DNA from: a bacterium
Lineage (GTDB): Bacteria > Patescibacteria > ABY1 > BM507 > VMTK01
Assembly: GCA_030641105.1 (NCBI GenBank)
Contig: DAOWHZ010000064.1
Span: 1-6,103, forward strand
DNA length: 6,103 nt
Direction: 5' to 3'
Shown here: piece by piece, positions 175 to 5,949 of the stretch
How positions within the stretch are numbered: the first letter of the stretch is position 1
Layout: every line of letters begins with the position of its first letter
The notes under the pieces: generated by a model
Told to the model about the DNA's origin: nothing
The model's input: the letters and a program-made list of their open reading frames with translations, nothing else
Databases searched by the model: none
Made by a program: the position numbers and the translations under genes

Positions 175-3100
175 ATGTATAATCACAAAAAAATAGAAAA
201 AAAATGGGCTGAAAGATGGGTTAAAGATAAAACTTTTACGCCGGATTTAGAAAAAGCCAAAAATCCTTATTACGCGCTTTTTATGTTTCCTTATCCAAGC
301 GCAGAAGGTTTGCATATTGGAAATTTTTACGCCTTTACCAGCGTGGATGTTATGGCAAAATATAAAAAATTGCAGGGAAAAGATGTTTTTGAGCCGATCG
401 GCTTTGACGCTTTTGGAATGCATTCGGAAAATTACGCCTTGAAAATTGGTGAAACGCCAAAAAAAATGCTTAATCGCACCATGGCTAATTTCCGAAAACA
501 GTTAAATTCAGCCGGTTTGGGCTGTGATTGGACGCGTGAAATTGACACAACTGCCCCTGAATATTATAAATGGACTCAATGGATATTTACTAAATTATTT
601 GAAAAAGGATTAGCTTATCAAAAAGAAGCGCTTTTAAACTGGTGTCCGAGCTGTAAAACGGTTTTAGCTGATGAACAGATTGAAAACGGAGTATGCGAAA
701 GGTGCAAAACCATTCCGGAAAAAAAGACAATGAAGCAATGGTTTTTAAAAATTACAGCTTACGCGCAGCGGTTGCTGGACGGGCTGGATGATATGGATTG
801 GTCAGATATTACTAAGCATGCGCAGAGGAATTGGATTGGGAGGTCGGAAGGAGCGATGGTGAAATTCCAAATCTCAAATTCCAAATCTCAAATAAATTCT
901 AAATCTCAAATTCCAAATAATCAAAAAATGGAAATTGAAGTATTTACTACCAGGCCTGACACTTTGTTTGGGGCGACATATATGGTGCTGTCCCCTGAAC
1001 ATCCTCTTGTAAATAAAATCACTGCTGAAAAACAAAAAAAAGAAGTGGAAAAATATATTAGAGAATCAGGGGCAAAGTCTGATCTGGAGCGGTCAGAAGC
1101 TAAAGAAAAGACGGGCGCTTTTACAGGCGCTTACGCTGTTAATCCTGTTAATAATGAAGAAATTCCGGTTTGGATAGCTGATTATGTTTTAATGGGCTAT
1201 GGCACAGGCGCGATTATGGCTGTGCCGGCGCATGACGAACGGGATTTTGAATTTGCGAAAACATACAATTTGTTGATTAAAGAAGTGGTTATTCCGATAT
1301 TCGGCAATGAACATAAGAACGAAAAATACAGGGAAACAATTACCGCTTTAGTCCATAGAAAAAAAGACAATAAATTTTTATATTTAAATGATAACCATTA
1401 CAAAATAGCCGCGCCAATAATTGGAGGAATTAAAAAAGGTGAATCAATTAAAGATACAGCCGAAAGAGAAGTGTATGAAGAAACAGGGTATAAAGTAAAA
1501 TTTATTAAAAAACTCGGCAACCAAATTGAATCTCATTTTTTTGCTTCACACAAGAATGTCCGGAGGCATAGATTAGATCAGCCGGTTTTATGCGAATTAT
1601 TAGATGAAGACGCAGAGCCGGATAAAATATCTGAAGAAGAGGCAAATAAGCATAAAATTATATGGCTAACTGCCCAAGAAGCGTTAAAAAGGATTGTGTA
1701 TGAGGATAACAAAATAGGATTATTAAAATATTTAGGCAAGTATGGGGTTTTTTGCGGAGATGGCAGAAATATAAATTCTGATTTTTCTGATGAAGTTTTA
1801 ACTAAAAAGATGAATTGTGTAATGATTCATGGTTCCTCGGGAAGAAGTAAAATAGATGACCCTAATTACATAGCGCCCAATAAGCGCCATTGGCATGGTT
1901 GGCTAGAGGATAAATTAAATGAGAATGGCTACGAAGTTAAAAACCCCATAATGCCTCAGGACTGGGAACCAAATTATAATGAGTGGAAAAAAGAAATTGA
2001 AAAATTTGATATTAATGAAAATACAATATTAATTGGAACAAGCGCTGGCGGAGCATTTATAGTAAAATGGCTGGGGGAAACAAAAAAGAAAATTAAAACC
2101 TTAATTCTAAATGCTCCATCAAAAATTTTAATTAAAAAAGATGAACGAATGAAAGAATTTTGTGATTTCAAGATTGACCCTAAAATTAAAAATAGGGTTG
2201 AAAAAATCACTATTTTTATTTCAAACGATAGGCCGCATAGAATAAAAAGCGCTCATCTTTATGCTAAAGAATTAAACGCTAAACTAATTAAATTAGAAAA
2301 TCGTAAACATTTTTGCGTTAACGATAACCCAATCAATAAAGAATTCCCAGAATTATTAGAGGAAATTTTAAAACAAGAATGTTTGACAGATAAAAGAGTG
2401 AACGCGGATTCTATATTTTTAAATGGCTTAACAACAAAAGAAGCAAAAGAAAAAATAATTAAATGGTTGGAGAAAAAAAACTTCGGCAAAGGAACTGTAA
2501 ATTATAAATTACGTGATTGGTGCATCAGTAGGCAAAGATACTGGGGGCCGCCTGTGCCGATTGTTTATTGTAAAAAATGCGGTGTTCAATCTGTTCCAGA
2601 AAAAGATTTGCCGGTTAAATTACCTGAAATGGAAAAAGGGTGGGAGCCGGCAGGAGACGGGAGAGGACCGCTGGCTAAAGTAGATAAGTTTATGAAGACA
2701 ATTTGCCCGAAATGCAACGGTCTGGCCGAACGCGAACCGGATGTTATGGATAATTTTTTAGATTCAGCATGGTATTTTTTTAGATATATTTCTCCGCATG
2801 ATAACAAAAATATATTTGATAAAAAGTTAAGCAAAAAATGGCTGCCTGTTGATTTATATGTCGGCGGAAATGAGCACGCTGTCCTGCATCTTATGTACAC
2901 CCGATTTATTACCATGGCTCTGCACGATTTGGGCTTAATTGATTTTGATAATCCTTTTAAAAAGTTTCGGGCAAACGGTATGATATTAAAGGATGGCCAG
3001 AAAATGAGCAAATCAAAAGGCAATATTGTTCATCCGGAAGAGTACGGCGAAAAAATCGGTTATGACGCGCTAAAAATTTATCTTTTATTCTTAGGCCCAT

Positions 3101-3765
3101 TAAGCGAAGATAGGTCATTCAGCGATGCTGGCGCGCTAGGCGCTAGGCGATGGGTGGAAAGAATAGCCCGCTTAAAAGAAAAAGTAAATAACAACTGCGA
3201 AGACAGCGTGAATACAATAAAAAAATTTCATCAAACCATTAAAATAGTTACTAGCGATTTTGAAGGTCAAAAATACAATACGGCTATTGCCCGTTTAATG
3301 GAGTTGACAAATGCTTTAAGCGCGGAAAAAAATATTTCAAATAAAACATGGGAAAAATTTCTAATTCTCATTGCTCCTTTTGCTCCAGCGCTTGCTGAAG
3401 AGTTGTGGTCCTCCTTCGCTGAAGCTACGGAGGATAAATCCTCCTGCGCCCCCACCGACGCTCAAGCTTTGGCGGGCAAGAAGGCTACGGAGGATAAAGA
3501 AGCGAGAAAAAAATATAAGCAATCAGTTTTTAAACAGTCATGGCCAAAATACAACAAAGAATTAGTTAAAGATAAAATTATAAATTTAGTGGTGCAGGTG
3601 AACGGCAAATTGCGTGATACTATTGAAGTTGGCGCTGATATTAGCGAAAAGGAAGCCAAGAAAGTGGCTTTGGCAAGCGGAAAAATTAAGAAGTGGATTA
3701 AAGGGAAAGAGGTGGTTAAGGTGATTTTTGTGAAAGGGAGGTTGGTGAATATTGTTGTAAAATAA
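175..3765 (+). CDS. leuS: Leucyl-tRNA synthetase with NUDIX and serine-hydrolase insertions in the editing domain
   Basis: This cytoplasmic class I aminoacyl-tRNA synthetase charges tRNA-Leu with leucine using ATP and is essential for translation. Seen: an N-terminal Rossmann fold with FPYP and HIGN (residues 47-50); a probable zinc site C157/C160/C174/C177; CP1 editing motifs TTRPDT (258-263) and AHDERD (352-357), where D357 corresponds to the Asp that anchors the misacylated substrate; a second CxxC pair set at C799/C802 and C844/C847; LeuRS-typical blocks RDWCISRQRYWG, DSAWYFFRY and GGNEHAVLHL; KMSKS (943-947); an anticodon-binding helical domain (about 1003-1112); and a C-terminal domain with VQVNGKLRD. 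Bacterial LeuRS is usually about 800-880 residues; this one is 1196. The excess is a NUDIX domain (about 378-520), a serine hydrolase (about 546-735) and two repeat-derived peptides (about 230-250 and 1079-1110). All core motifs are intact and the frame is open throughout, so it is probably active. The start is chosen because MYNHKKIEKKW is the normal LeuRS N-terminus. Confidence 0.97.
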   Translation: MYNHKKIEKKWAERWVKDKTFTPDLEKAKNPYYALFMFPYPSAEGLHIGNFYAFTSVDVMAKYKKLQGKDVFEPIGFDAFGMHSENYALKIGETPKKMLNRTMANFRKQLNSAGLGCDWTREIDTTAPEYYKWTQWIFTKLFEKGLAYQKEALLNWCPSCKTVLADEQIENGVCERCKTIPEKKTMKQWFLKITAYAQRLLDGLDDMDWSDITKHAQRNWIGRSEGAMVKFQISNSKSQINSKSQIPNNQKMEIEVFTTRPDTLFGATYMVLSPEHPLVNKITAEKQKKEVEKYIRESGAKSDLERSEAKEKTGAFTGAYAVNPVNNEEIPVWIADYVLMGYGTGAIMAVPAHDERDFEFAKTYNLLIKEVVIPIFGNEHKNEKYRETITALVHRKKDNKFLYLNDNHYKIAAPIIGGIKKGESIKDTAEREVYEETGYKVKFIKKLGNQIESHFFASHKNVRRHRLDQPVLCELLDEDAEPDKISEEEANKHKIIWLTAQEALKRIVYEDNKIGLLKYLGKYGVFCGDGRNINSDFSDEVLTKKMNCVMIHGSSGRSKIDDPNYIAPNKRHWHGWLEDKLNENGYEVKNPIMPQDWEPNYNEWKKEIEKFDINENTILIGTSAGGAFIVKWLGETKKKIKTLILNAPSKILIKKDERMKEFCDFKIDPKIKNRVEKITIFISNDRPHRIKSAHLYAKELNAKLIKLENRKHFCVNDNPINKEFPELLEEILKQECLTDKRVNADSIFLNGLTTKEAKEKIIKWLEKKNFGKGTVNYKLRDWCISRQRYWGPPVPIVYCKKCGVQSVPEKDLPVKLPEMEKGWEPAGDGRGPLAKVDKFMKTICPKCNGLAEREPDVMDNFLDSAWYFFRYISPHDNKNIFDKKLSKKWLPVDLYVGGNEHAVLHLMYTRFITMALHDLGLIDFDNPFKKFRANGMILKDGQKMSKSKGNIVHPEEYGEKIGYDALKIYLLFLGPLSEDRSFSDAGALGARRWVERIARLKEKVNNNCEDSVNTIKKFHQTIKIVTSDFEGQKYNTAIARLMELTNALSAEKNISNKTWEKFLILIAPFAPALAEELWSSFAEATEDKSSCAPTDAQALAGKKATEDKEARKKYKQSVFKQSWPKYNKELVKDKIINLVVQVNGKLRDTIEVGADISEKEAKKVALASGKIKKWIKGKEVVKVIFVKGRLVNIVVK
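862..925 (+). repeat. AT-rich tandem repeat inside leuS, translated in frame
   Basis: Two perfect copies of AAATTCCAAATCTC (862-875 and 876-889) are followed by degenerate copies at 890-907 and 908-922. The stretch encodes a Ser/Asn/Gln/Lys-rich peptide (about residues 230-250) with no LeuRS counterpart. It sits between GRSEGAMV and MEIEVFTTRPDT, at the entry of the CP1 editing domain where two beta strands are normally joined by a short turn. The motif looks like intergenic repeats of CPR genomes (recollection). The total length keeps the frame open, so it was tolerated as a surface loop. Confidence 0.85.
1306..1734 (+). other. NUDIX hydrolase domain embedded in the LeuRS CP1 domain
   Basis: Residues about 378-520 of the leuS product form a full NUDIX domain. 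The box follows GX5EX7REUXEEXGU exactly: G417, E423, R431-E432-V433, E435-E436, G438, with Y439 in the last hydrophobic place. The metal-binding glutamates are all present. The NUDIX family cleaves nucleoside diphosphates linked to another moiety. The substrate here cannot be read from the sequence; dinucleoside polyphosphates such as Ap4A, a known side product of aminoacyl-tRNA synthetases, are a reasonable guess. The domain replaces the short loop that in E. coli LeuRS joins the strand after AHDxRDYEFA to the GVLFNSGEF segment. LeuRS sequence resumes at GDGRNINSDF (528-537). I recall similar NUDIX-bearing LeuRS in other Patescibacteria but could not verify it. Confidence 0.93.
1810..2379 (+). 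other. RBBP9/YdeN-like serine hydrolase domain embedded in the LeuRS CP1 domain
   Basis: Residues about 546-735 form a complete small alpha/beta hydrolase of the RBBP9/YdeN type. It opens with MNCVMIHGSSG, which has the form of a free-standing protein's start and first beta strand with HG. The nucleophile elbow is GTSAGG with Ser623. The acidic residue is most likely D685 in ISNDRPHR, and the catalytic His is H712 in NRKHF. The order and spacing of Ser, Asp and His match the fold, and about 190 residues is the normal full length of the family. It lies between INSDFSDE and FLNGLTTKEA of LeuRS, where E. coli reads NSGEFNGL without interruption. The natural substrate is unknown. No intein splice residues are seen at either junction, so it probably stays in the mature enzyme. 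Confidence 0.9.
3409..3498 (+). repeat. GC-rich palindromic repeat inside the 3' part of leuS
   Basis: TCCTCC (3409-3414) can pair with GGAGGA (3429-3434), and GGAGGAT (3429-3435) also pairs with ATCCTCC (3438-3444) across AA, so two hairpins compete. GCTACGGAGGATAAA occurs twice (3424-3438 and 3484-3498), exactly 60 bases or 20 codons apart, giving the peptide ATEDK twice. Between them lies an imperfect dyad with arms CCCACC and GGCGGG. The encoded residues 1079-1110 interrupt LeuRS between AEELW and the KQSWPKYNKE block. Codon and base use are clearly unlike the AT-rich flanks. This resembles an intergenic palindromic element that entered a gene without breaking the frame. Confidence 0.85.
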
Positions 3766-3779
3766 TTCAAAATTTAGAT

Positions 3780-3933
3780 TGTCATTGCGAGGAATGGAGT
3801 GAAGCCCCGATTGCTATCGGGATAAACTCCGCGGAACGGAATGACGAAGCAATCCCGTGATTAGTGCGGTTTGCCACGGGATTGCTTCGTCGCTCCATCC
3901 CGCCAAGGCGGGATTCCGCTCCTCGCAGTGACA
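3780..3933. repeat. Composite palindromic repeat filling the leuS-nucleotidyltransferase gap
   Basis: The outer ends are inverted: TGTCATTGCGAGGA (3780-3793) against TCCTCGCAGTGACA (3920-3933), with one mismatch. Inside are a perfect 17-bp stem (3843-3859 with 3875-3891) with a 15-base loop, CCCGAT/ATCGGG (3806-3811 with 3816-3821), and ATCCCGCC/GGCGGGAT (3897-3904 with 3907-3914). The 18-mer at 3818-3835 also occurs at 30-47. The 'gtcattgcgagg...cctcgcagtgac' layout is a widespread bacterial dispersed repeat type (recollection). It ends nine bases before the next start codon. It could fold in the transcript and reduce read-through, but no U-tract follows the stems, so it is not called a terminator. 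Confidence 0.88.
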
Positions 3934-3942
3934 TGGTTTTTT

Positions 3943-4617
3943 ATGCAAGCAGTAATTTTAGCAGCGGGTCGGGGAACAAGATTGCGTCCGATAACATACA
4001 ACATACCCAAGCCCATGATCCGCATAGCTGGAAAAAATTTAATTGAGCATAATATTAATCAGTTGCCGGACGAGATTGATGAGCTGATTATAATTGTTAA
4101 TTATTTGGCAGAGCAGATTATTAATCATTTTGGCAATGAATTTGCCGGCAGAAAAATCAAATATGTAAAACAGAAAAAGTTATTAGGCACTGGCCATGCT
4201 TTAAATTTGTGCAAAAATTTGCTCAAGGATAGATTTTTGGTGATGATGGCTGATGATATTTATAGTGGTGAAGATATTAGAAGATGCTTAAAACATGAAA
4301 GATGCATTTTAACTAAAGAAGTTCATGGCAAGTTTGTTGGCGGGCGCGTTAAACTTGATAGTTCAGGCCATCTGGAGGATATTATTGAAGGCGCGCATAA
4401 CAGAAGTAAAAGTTTAGCTAATGTTGGTTTGTATGTTTTAACTGACAAATTTTTTAAATATGATTTAGTACCTTTGACTGGTCAGAAAGGTTATGGTTTG
4501 CCACAGACCGTGGTAAAGGTAGCTCGTGATTGGCCGATTAAAATTGAAAAAGCGAATTTTTGGCTGCAGATTAATGATTTAGCAGGATTAAAAAGGGCGG
4601 AGAAAATATTAAAATAG
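3943..4617 (+). CDS. Sugar-phosphate nucleotidyltransferase (NDP-sugar pyrophosphorylase family)
   Basis: This 224-residue protein should join a nucleoside triphosphate and a sugar 1-phosphate to give an NDP-sugar and pyrophosphate, in cell-surface polysaccharide supply. Seen: the N-terminal nucleotide-binding signature LAAGRGTRLRP (6-16); PKPM (22-25) with the phosphate-binding Lys; GTGHA (82-86), the base-recognition region; and ADD (103-105), the probable metal-binding Asp at the place of the family's GD motif. The C-terminal FWLQINDLAGL resembles the family's closing W-x-D/N segment. It ends after the catalytic domain, with no left-handed beta-helix, so it is not a full GlmU. The specific sugar and nucleotide cannot be told. 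The ATG at 3943 is chosen because MQAVILAAG is the normal family start. An upstream TTG in the same frame (3871) would only add translated repeat sequence. No Shine-Dalgarno is visible before the ATG. Confidence 0.88.
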   Translation: MQAVILAAGRGTRLRPITYNIPKPMIRIAGKNLIEHNINQLPDEIDELIIIVNYLAEQIINHFGNEFAGRKIKYVKQKKLLGTGHALNLCKNLLKDRFLVMMADDIYSGEDIRRCLKHERCILTKEVHGKFVGGRVKLDSSGHLEDIIEGAHNRSKSLANVGLYVLTDKFFKYDLVPLTGQKGYGLPQTVVKVARDWPIKIEKANFWLQINDLAGLKRAEKILK

Positions 4618-4680
4618 TTAATCAGTTACTCAGTTTGAAATAATTAGAATTAAACTAAGTAACTGATTAACTGATTAACT
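4616..4680. repeat. 21-bp inverted repeat overlapping the nucleotidyltransferase stop codon
   Basis: Arm 4616-4636 begins within the TAG stop and is complementary to 4652-4672 at 20 of 21 positions, with a 15-base spacer (4637-4651). The motif CTGATTAA then repeats in tandem up to 4680. The next gene starts at 4686. The hairpin is AT-rich and has no U-tract, so it looks more like a dispersed palindromic repeat than a classical terminator, though it could still influence transcript ends. No SD sequence for the following gene is present. Confidence 0.85.
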
Positions 4681-4685
4681 AAAAT

Positions 4686-5840: not shown

Positions 5841-5844
5841 CAAT

Positions 5845-5943
5845 ATGCTAATCTAGCGAATAAATGCAAATCTGCGAATTGCGAATGATATAGATTCGCA
5901 TATTCGCAATTCGCAGATTTGCATTTATTCGCATTATTAGCAT
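5845..5943. repeat. Inverted repeat with 42-bp arms between convergent genes; possible bidirectional terminator
   Basis: Arm 5845-5886 matches the complement of 5902-5943 at 39 of 42 positions, including 31 uninterrupted inner pairs, around a 15-base spacer (5887-5901). The arms are built from recurring GCGAAT/ATTCGC and ATGCAAAT-like units. It occupies the whole gap between the MFS gene (stop at 5840) and the convergent partial gene (stop at 5950). The RNA would form a very stable hairpin on either strand, so it could end transcription in both directions. No clear U-tract follows, so termination is inference, while the inverted repeat itself is plain. Confidence 0.92.
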
Positions 5944-5949
5944 AGTATA

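Follow-up and report, generated by a model that had tools for sequence, protein, structure and literature searches.

Two hydrolases inserted at the base of the editing domain of a patescibacterial leucyl-tRNA synthetase, a case of recurrent enzyme insertion

Aminoacyl-tRNA synthetases are universal and conserved, yet essential members of this group gain, lose, and swap whole enzymes among relatives whose cores are 72-87% identical. A case in point is a stretch of patescibacterial DNA of 6,103 nucleotides (the window, by which the whole analysed stretch is meant), where one intact leuS gene is followed by a sugar nucleotidyltransferase-like gene and then by an MFS gene. The leucyl-tRNA synthetase (LeuRS) encoded by this leuS holds two further enzymes, at points designated B and B', and its features are the following:

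175..3765, + strand: leuS, bacterial-type leucyl-tRNA synthetase of 1196 aa with two enzymes inserted
826..1332, + strand: CP1 editing domain (PF13603 match, aa 218-386), containing FTTRPDT (943-963) and HDERD (1231-1245)
880..924, + strand: repeat-derived in-frame peptide at insertion point A, aa 236-250 (pLDDT below 50 at aa 236-250)
1291..1743, + strand: site-B insert, NUDIX domain, approximately aa 373-523
1423..1491, + strand: Nudix box GGIKKGESIKDTAEREVYEETGY
1744..1785, + strand: LeuRS segment GVFCGDGRNINSDF between both inserts
1786..2409, + strand: site-B' insert (linker, serine hydrolase, linker), aa 538-745
1810..2379, + strand: RBBP9/YdeN-like alpha/beta hydrolase (PF06821), beginning at an internal Met
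2041..2043, + strand: putative catalytic Ser623 (GTSAGG)
2227..2229, + strand: putative catalytic Asp685 (SNDRP)
2308..2310, + strand: putative catalytic His712 (RKHFC)
2410..3762, + strand: LeuRS resumes (SIFLNGL...SRQRYWG...KMSKS...C-terminus)
3409..3504, + strand: additional repeat-like peptide preceding the C-terminal domain, aa 1079-1110 (low confidence at aa 1087-1099)

The host protein shares its catalytic core, CP1 editing domain, and KMSKS loop with bacterial LeuRS of the T. thermophilus and E. coli type, from which it differs in having approximately 150 and 210 additional residues, placed at two positions in the base of CP1. The motifs HIGN (aa 47-50, HIGH-like), KMSKS (943-947), FTTRPDT (257-263), and HDERD (353-357) are all present, the last two belonging to the editing pocket. 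The protein scores 903.7 bits against TIGR00396 (curated cut-off 548.4), and its full-length structure model matches 2bte, among others. This model was limited to 35 LeuRS rows, because standalone hydrolases were misaligned when added; its hydrolase part is weak (10-residue means of 45-87), and the hydrolase domain modelled alone is good. In an alignment to the Anoxybacillus and E. coli LeuRS, the NUDIX insert takes the place of the loop behind IKEVV (site B), and the hydrolase insert interrupts INSDF|FLNGL (site B'). Since this latter motif is continuous in Anoxybacillus LeuRS, the segment GDGRNINSDF between the inserts consists of genuine LeuRS residues, as originally predicted. According to the alignment and the known organisation of LeuRS, both sites are located in the base of CP1 on its C-terminal side, at the return to the core and outside the editing pocket; the earlier placement of the inserts within CP1 is narrowed to this base. 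The A+T content of both inserts is higher than that of the LeuRS core.

The insert at site B displays the two features common to Nudix hydrolases, a match to PF00293 (aa 390-508; 38.8 bits for the whole protein and 43.8 for the domain, cut-off 21.1) and a Nudix box of the form GX5EX7REUXEEXGU at aa 417-439, whose final U is Tyr and not I, L, or V. The strict box is kept in 71 of 75 site-B NUDIX rows. No specific Nudix subfamily model reached its cut-off with the window domain, and the search found only 3 standalone relatives, 52-53% identical. The insert at site B' matches PF06821 above cut-off (aa 568-716), has the alpha/beta-hydrolase fold, and aligns with the Ser-Asp-His triad at S623, D685, and H712. 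Its closest studied structure with known activity is RBBP9; it is 21-24% identical to the RBBP9/YdeN serine hydrolases, and is distinguished from them by its location inside a synthetase. Glu108 of RBBP9, which binds the free alpha-amine, aligns to E657 only via a gapped stretch, and relatives vary here. Both hydrolases claimed at the outset are complete, with Nudix box and triad intact, and we regard the tandem-insert architecture as virtually certain. The intact motifs also suggest that the polypeptide may combine the four activities originally proposed (synthesis, editing, NUDIX, and esterase/amidase-like).

A misjoined contig or assembly chimera might be invoked for such an architecture, an explanation that can be rejected as extremely improbable: both insert borders are in frame within the 1196-aa ORF, the same NUDIX-hydrolase tandem is carried by an independent LeuRS, P0001, whose longest contig is 131 kb, and the NUDIX domain occurs at an identical border in the near relatives P0003-P0006 and L179. 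Neither is the architecture unique to the window, given P0001 (hydrolase at A, NUDIX at B, hydrolase at B') and the recurrence of inserts across the surveyed LeuRS. A protein search with the insert region gave 42 proteins, which according to their Pfam lists are 38 LeuRS, 3 UvrB (P0008, P0009, P0022), and 1 DNA ligase (P0023). In a set of 143 LeuRS enriched for inserts, NUDIX at B is combined with a hydrolase at A, B', or C in 23 by clustering, or in 22 if L171, whose A insert fails the hydrolase profile, is left aside.

The tree of these 143 LeuRS cores, calculated with insert columns removed, duplicate loci L005, L109, and L110 omitted, and the identical row pairs L179/P0006 and L025/P0037 retained, places the window in a clade of 8 rows with support of 100. 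Within it, L178 (72-78% identical to the window) has no insert; L180, from a contig of a Falkowbacteria genome, has only a hydrolase, located at the NUDIX site B; L179, identical to P0006 and 84-86% identical to the window, has only NUDIX; P0005 has NUDIX; and P0003 and P0004 have NUDIX at B, an unrelated stretch of approximately 90 aa at B', and a different alpha/beta hydrolase at C, P0003 also having a Ham1-like N-terminal part. The B' stretch of the last two (P0003 aa 500-592, P0004 aa 541-630; GAEP.EG.EPS...) is reminiscent of translated antisense tRNA. Because insert content differs within this clade, whole enzymes have been gained or lost among LeuRS that are 72-86% identical to the window, and the relatives with NUDIX only, hydrolase only, or neither support the proposal that the two insertions were independent.

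What could maintain such enzymes within a synthetase? The explanation that we consider best, with confidence evenly divided, is that a functional LeuRS took up two accessory enzymes in loops, located in the base of CP1, that tolerate insertion. Comparison of relatives shows that the loops designated A, B, B', C, and D accept in-frame material, and that small, compact one-domain enzymes from standalone genes land there and are retained for a time; the captured enzymes would be kept because they act beside LeuRS. A serious rival, to which we assign a real if lesser than even chance, is near-neutral capture, where the loops of class Ia synthetases are unusually permissive and any compact domain with close ends may drift in and out with no role in LeuRS. 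The rapid turnover within the window clade favours such drift, and L178, a close relative, does without inserts, which speaks against an accessory role. On the insert-enriched LeuRS tree, the minimum number of changes is 33 at A, 55 at B, and 20 at C, also as drift would have it; the retention of catalytic residues in most copies argues in the opposite direction.

The breadth of the phenomenon was surveyed in 144 genomes drawn evenly from the class of L180's genome (the class sample), with aa 1-219 of the window LeuRS as query. LeuRS was matched in 136 genomes, and all 46 open LeuRS frames of at least 928 aa were inspected; an insert of at least 60 aa is present in 44 (one insert in 37, two in 4, three in 2, and four in 1) and is absent in L148 and L177. 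The figure of 44 is a lower bound, since the count covers only frames of this length that are not truncated at a contig end. Among the 46, site B holds NUDIX in 20, a hydrolase in 4, a member of a nucleotidyltransferase cluster in 4, and another domain in 1; site A holds members of the hydrolase cluster in 11, of which 3 (L142, L155, L171) fail the hydrolase profile, that of L142 being Ham1-like, and of the nucleotidyltransferase cluster in 1; site C holds a hydrolase in 11 and an ASCH-like domain in 1; site D is occupied in 2 and B' in 0. The 1554-aa LeuRS of L142 (G047) carries four inserts (Ham1-like, NUDIX, hydrolase, and nucleotidyltransferase cluster), and single inserts of two domains occur in L154 (NUDIX, HAD) and L157 (hydrolase and, by eye, Ham1-like). 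The window LeuRS is thus one case of a recurrent, fast-changing insertion of hydrolases in tRNA-loading enzymes of tiny bacteria and archaea. In the wider insert-enriched LeuRS set, 175 inserts form 11 clusters, the two largest being NUDIX (77) and alpha/beta hydrolase (76). Among ten selected inserts or portions of inserts, Pfam identified His_Phos_1 (3), NUDIX, PDDEXK_3, DUF559, Aminoglyc_resit (a nucleotidyltransferase fold), Ham1, and HAD_2, with an ASCH match slightly below cut-off. That PDDEXK_3, DUF559, HAD, Ham1, nucleotidyltransferase-fold, and ASCH-like domains occupy the same LeuRS loops counts against an accessory role, and so very mixed a set of families is in keeping with neutral drift.

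Inserts are also present in the related synthetases for valine and isoleucine. ValRS was matched in 131 of the 144 genomes, and all 18 frames of at least 1014 aa were fetched; a large histidine-phosphatase-like insert with an RHG, VHG, or VHS motif is found in 16 (L199-L213, L215), located behind the SRQ.WFG..IPVW region in 14 and further on, behind STLGWP, in L202 and L209. Among the 18, L198 and L214 have no such insert, the frame of L214 being wrong and counted as a miss. IleRS was matched in 134 genomes, with 31 frames of at least 1114 aa, and 18 of the 20 fetched (L218-L221, L223-L226, L228-L237) carry a histidine-phosphatase-like insert with RHG, RHA, or RHT, at a single alignment point behind the zinc-hairpin region; L222 and L227 are the two among the 20 with none. 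Pfam confirmed His_Phos_1 in all three IleRS and ValRS inserts scanned (L218, L204, L201). A further stretch in ValRS L199 and L201 is ASCH-like by eye, and Pfam found no ASCH in L201. By motif, the usual IleRS and ValRS insertion points share a region with LeuRS site C, though not demonstrably a residue. G129, among the genomes nearest the window by LeuRS, has NUDIX in LeuRS (L179), a histidine phosphatase in ValRS (L203), and both in IleRS (L218). That each synthetase and site favours a particular family (NUDIX at site B of LeuRS, histidine phosphatase in IleRS and ValRS) counts against drift.

Two broader readings were rejected. That all LeuRS behave in this manner is contradicted by 140 genomes from the phylum of G532 (contig titled Gammaproteobacteria), where LeuRS was matched in 133 and 1 of the 133 frames exceeds 1000 aa (G658). 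That any long essential gene does so is contradicted by UvrB, matched in 122 of the 144 class-sample genomes, with one frame above 800 aa; this 1204-aa open frame (L242, from G041) displays, in the portion read, an intein-like C-terminal border (FVHN|T) and not a hydrolase. The hydrolase of the window LeuRS does occur in the UvrB proteins P0008, P0022, and P0009 and in the DNA ligase P0023, so that LeuRS is not its sole host, a point against an accessory role and for neutral capture. UvrB is not known to be linked to Ap4A. In the UvrB of P0009 and L003, which are probably one gene, a single loop ahead of QIIRPTGLLDP contains both a histidine phosphatase and the hydrolase, arranged in tandem.

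Regarding origin, standalone relatives of the window hydrolase are up to 64% identical to it, and a hydrolase tree with 58 rows intermingles inserted copies with standalone ones, its well supported branches requiring 6 changes or more. A contig scan with the hydrolase alignment placed, among the best 80 of 91 loci, 21 inside LeuRS, 1 inside UvrB, and 58 in neither, the titles being mostly of Patescibacteria and DPANN. Among these 58, L028 has two copies fused head to tail in a 382-aa frame, and in L031 the hydrolase is fused behind another domain. leuS lies in the flank of 4 of the 58 and in none of the other 54 flanks examined. In three (L014, L026, L040) a LeuRS with no insert is followed directly, on the same strand, by the hydrolase gene, and in the fourth, L044, the hydrolase is not adjacent. 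G004 (L243) combines a copy inside LeuRS with a second one directly downstream of leuS, in the same orientation. With the gene start placed at the first Met, the overlap is 4 nt in three of these four gene pairs, and L026 has a gap of 1 nt; all four are DPANN loci. In a DPANN sample of 148 genomes, 3 of 41 hydrolase matches are in LeuRS frames and 1 is directly behind leuS, and in the class sample 11 of 40 are within a LeuRS frame, with none seen behind leuS; the query misses distant copies, such as the profile-matching LeuRS inserts of G408 (L184), G442 (L189), and G503 (L185). From these counts, the neighbouring arrangement is that of a minority, and the location of most standalone copies away from leuS argues against an accessory role. 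The original prediction had held separate hydrolase genes in close relatives to count against the fusion; this is realised in part, as standalone genes exist, some of them abutting leuS, and they explain the origin of the insert while leaving the fusion intact. The gene pairs, the frequency of LeuRS as hydrolase host, and the different family preferred by IleRS and ValRS lend the accessory role moderate weight, the pairs also counting against drift, and a working link between the hydrolase and LeuRS seems to us as plausible as its absence.

Purifying selection on the inserts also speaks against neutral capture, dN/dS lying between 0.075 and 0.266 wherever a NUDIX or hydrolase pair yielded a value (five pairs). 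Between the window and L179 it is 0.157 for NUDIX and 0.069 and 0.091 for the LeuRS core; between L181 and L183 it is 0.181 for the hydrolase, 0.101 for a HAD-like insert, and 0.066-0.069 for the core; other NUDIX pairs gave 0.172 (L154/L195), 0.075 (L112/L113), and 0.266 (L130/L133), with L116/L196 saturated. Against the accessory role, the number of pairs is small, most of their values exceed those of the LeuRS core, and saturation affects some of them. These sequence comparisons indicate that the inserts are under constraint, weaker than that on the core.

If the captured enzymes do work with LeuRS, their substrates may be suggested, somewhat doubtfully. The RBBP9-like hydrolase would cut esters or amides of hydrophobic amino acids, and could free leucine from small peptides or deacylate wrong aminoacyl products. 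The excerpted text of PMC8866121 describes conjugates of RBBP9 with Leu/Ile, Met, and aromatic residues, and RBBP9 is taken to cleave hydrophobic amino acids from amide, ester, or thioester linkage. The NUDIX domain would degrade nucleotide by-products such as Ap4A. In the excerpt of PMC10148737, synthetases produce Ap4A, as do DNA ligases, and Nudix enzymes break it down; production by the Leu, Ile, and Val synthetases is described there as weak, which counts against this role. Were the link functional, an embedded or neighbouring hydrolase would indicate an undescribed reaction beside leucine charging; were it neutral, LeuRS loops would constitute a natural record of the positions and the ways in which a protein tolerates inserted domains.

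The movement of domains evokes a further possibility, that the inserts are left over from, or travel with, a mobile element that gains from residing in an essential gene, in the manner of inteins. The LeuRS cores of L130 and L133 before the insert are 87% identical, while their NUDIX domains are 31% identical and occupy separate regions of the NUDIX tree; one of the two was therefore replaced in a domain swap. Similarly, the window NUDIX clusters with NUDIX domains from LeuRS that include P0018 and P0019, and apart from L197, from the family of L180's genome, with modest deep support. Such transfer at the level of domains, essential hosts with fixed points hit repeatedly, and two nuclease-like inserts, PDDEXK_3 at site A of L004 and DUF559 at site A of L044, would suit a selfish origin. 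We nevertheless judge it improbable: Pfam gave only NUDIX and hydrolase families for the window inserts, the window protein having neither a Hint-type splicing domain nor a homing domain, NUDIX and hydrolase domains account for most inserts, and comparison by eye revealed no DNA border common to the window and its relatives and no exact target-site duplication at B'. The DUF559 insert of L044 is bordered by a repeat-like peptide.

A more ambitious extension of the accessory reading, which we consider rather unlikely, is that in Patescibacteria and DPANN the proofreading class Ia enzymes LeuRS, IleRS, and ValRS possess docking loops for exchangeable catalytic plug-ins suited to the products of each synthetase, the domains passing between lineages apart from the synthetase. 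LeuRS would receive an aminoacyl hydrolase and a Nudix enzyme, and IleRS and ValRS a histidine phosphatase; if true, this would add a modular second tier to quality control or to the clearing of by-products.

No report of these LeuRS inserts was found in the open-licence literature, as judged by titles and abstract starts among the matches listed. PMC13114784 regards the LeuRS editing domain itself as an insert, and its excerpt does not contain the word Nudix. PMC11515920, in its excerpted text, describes lineage-specific insertional domains of RNA polymerase, likewise a repeated domain insertion in an essential information-processing enzyme; those are dated early in bacterial evolution and the excerpt lacks the word hydrolase, whereas the LeuRS inserts are fast-changing and, by their motifs, probably catalytic. 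IleRS with an N-acetyltransferase domain (NF040702, known here by name alone) also joins a class Ia synthetase to an additional enzyme domain, as in the window, and differs in both the synthetase and the enzymes; the window LeuRS scores 53.9 against that model, whose cut-off is 1999.

Finally, repeat peptides occupy the same loops as the enzymes, a further point in favour of neutral capture. Around window point A, copies of a DNA repeat extend over 848-925, and the L180 hydrolase is preceded by an in-frame CACAAAAA tandem repeat; the ValRS and IleRS of L180's genome likewise hold repeat peptides. These few examples suggest that loop repeats may help the capture of enzymes. In-frame tandem-repeat peptides are also seen in the ValRS and IleRS of G001 (L096, L102), reading KTQKHKNTKT... 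and RMSDVGCRMSDVG... Elsewhere in the window, intergenic inverted repeats with arms of 21-43 nt lie at 3831-3903, 4607-4681, and 5844-5944, and an 18-nt direct repeat has copies at 30-47 and 3818-3835.
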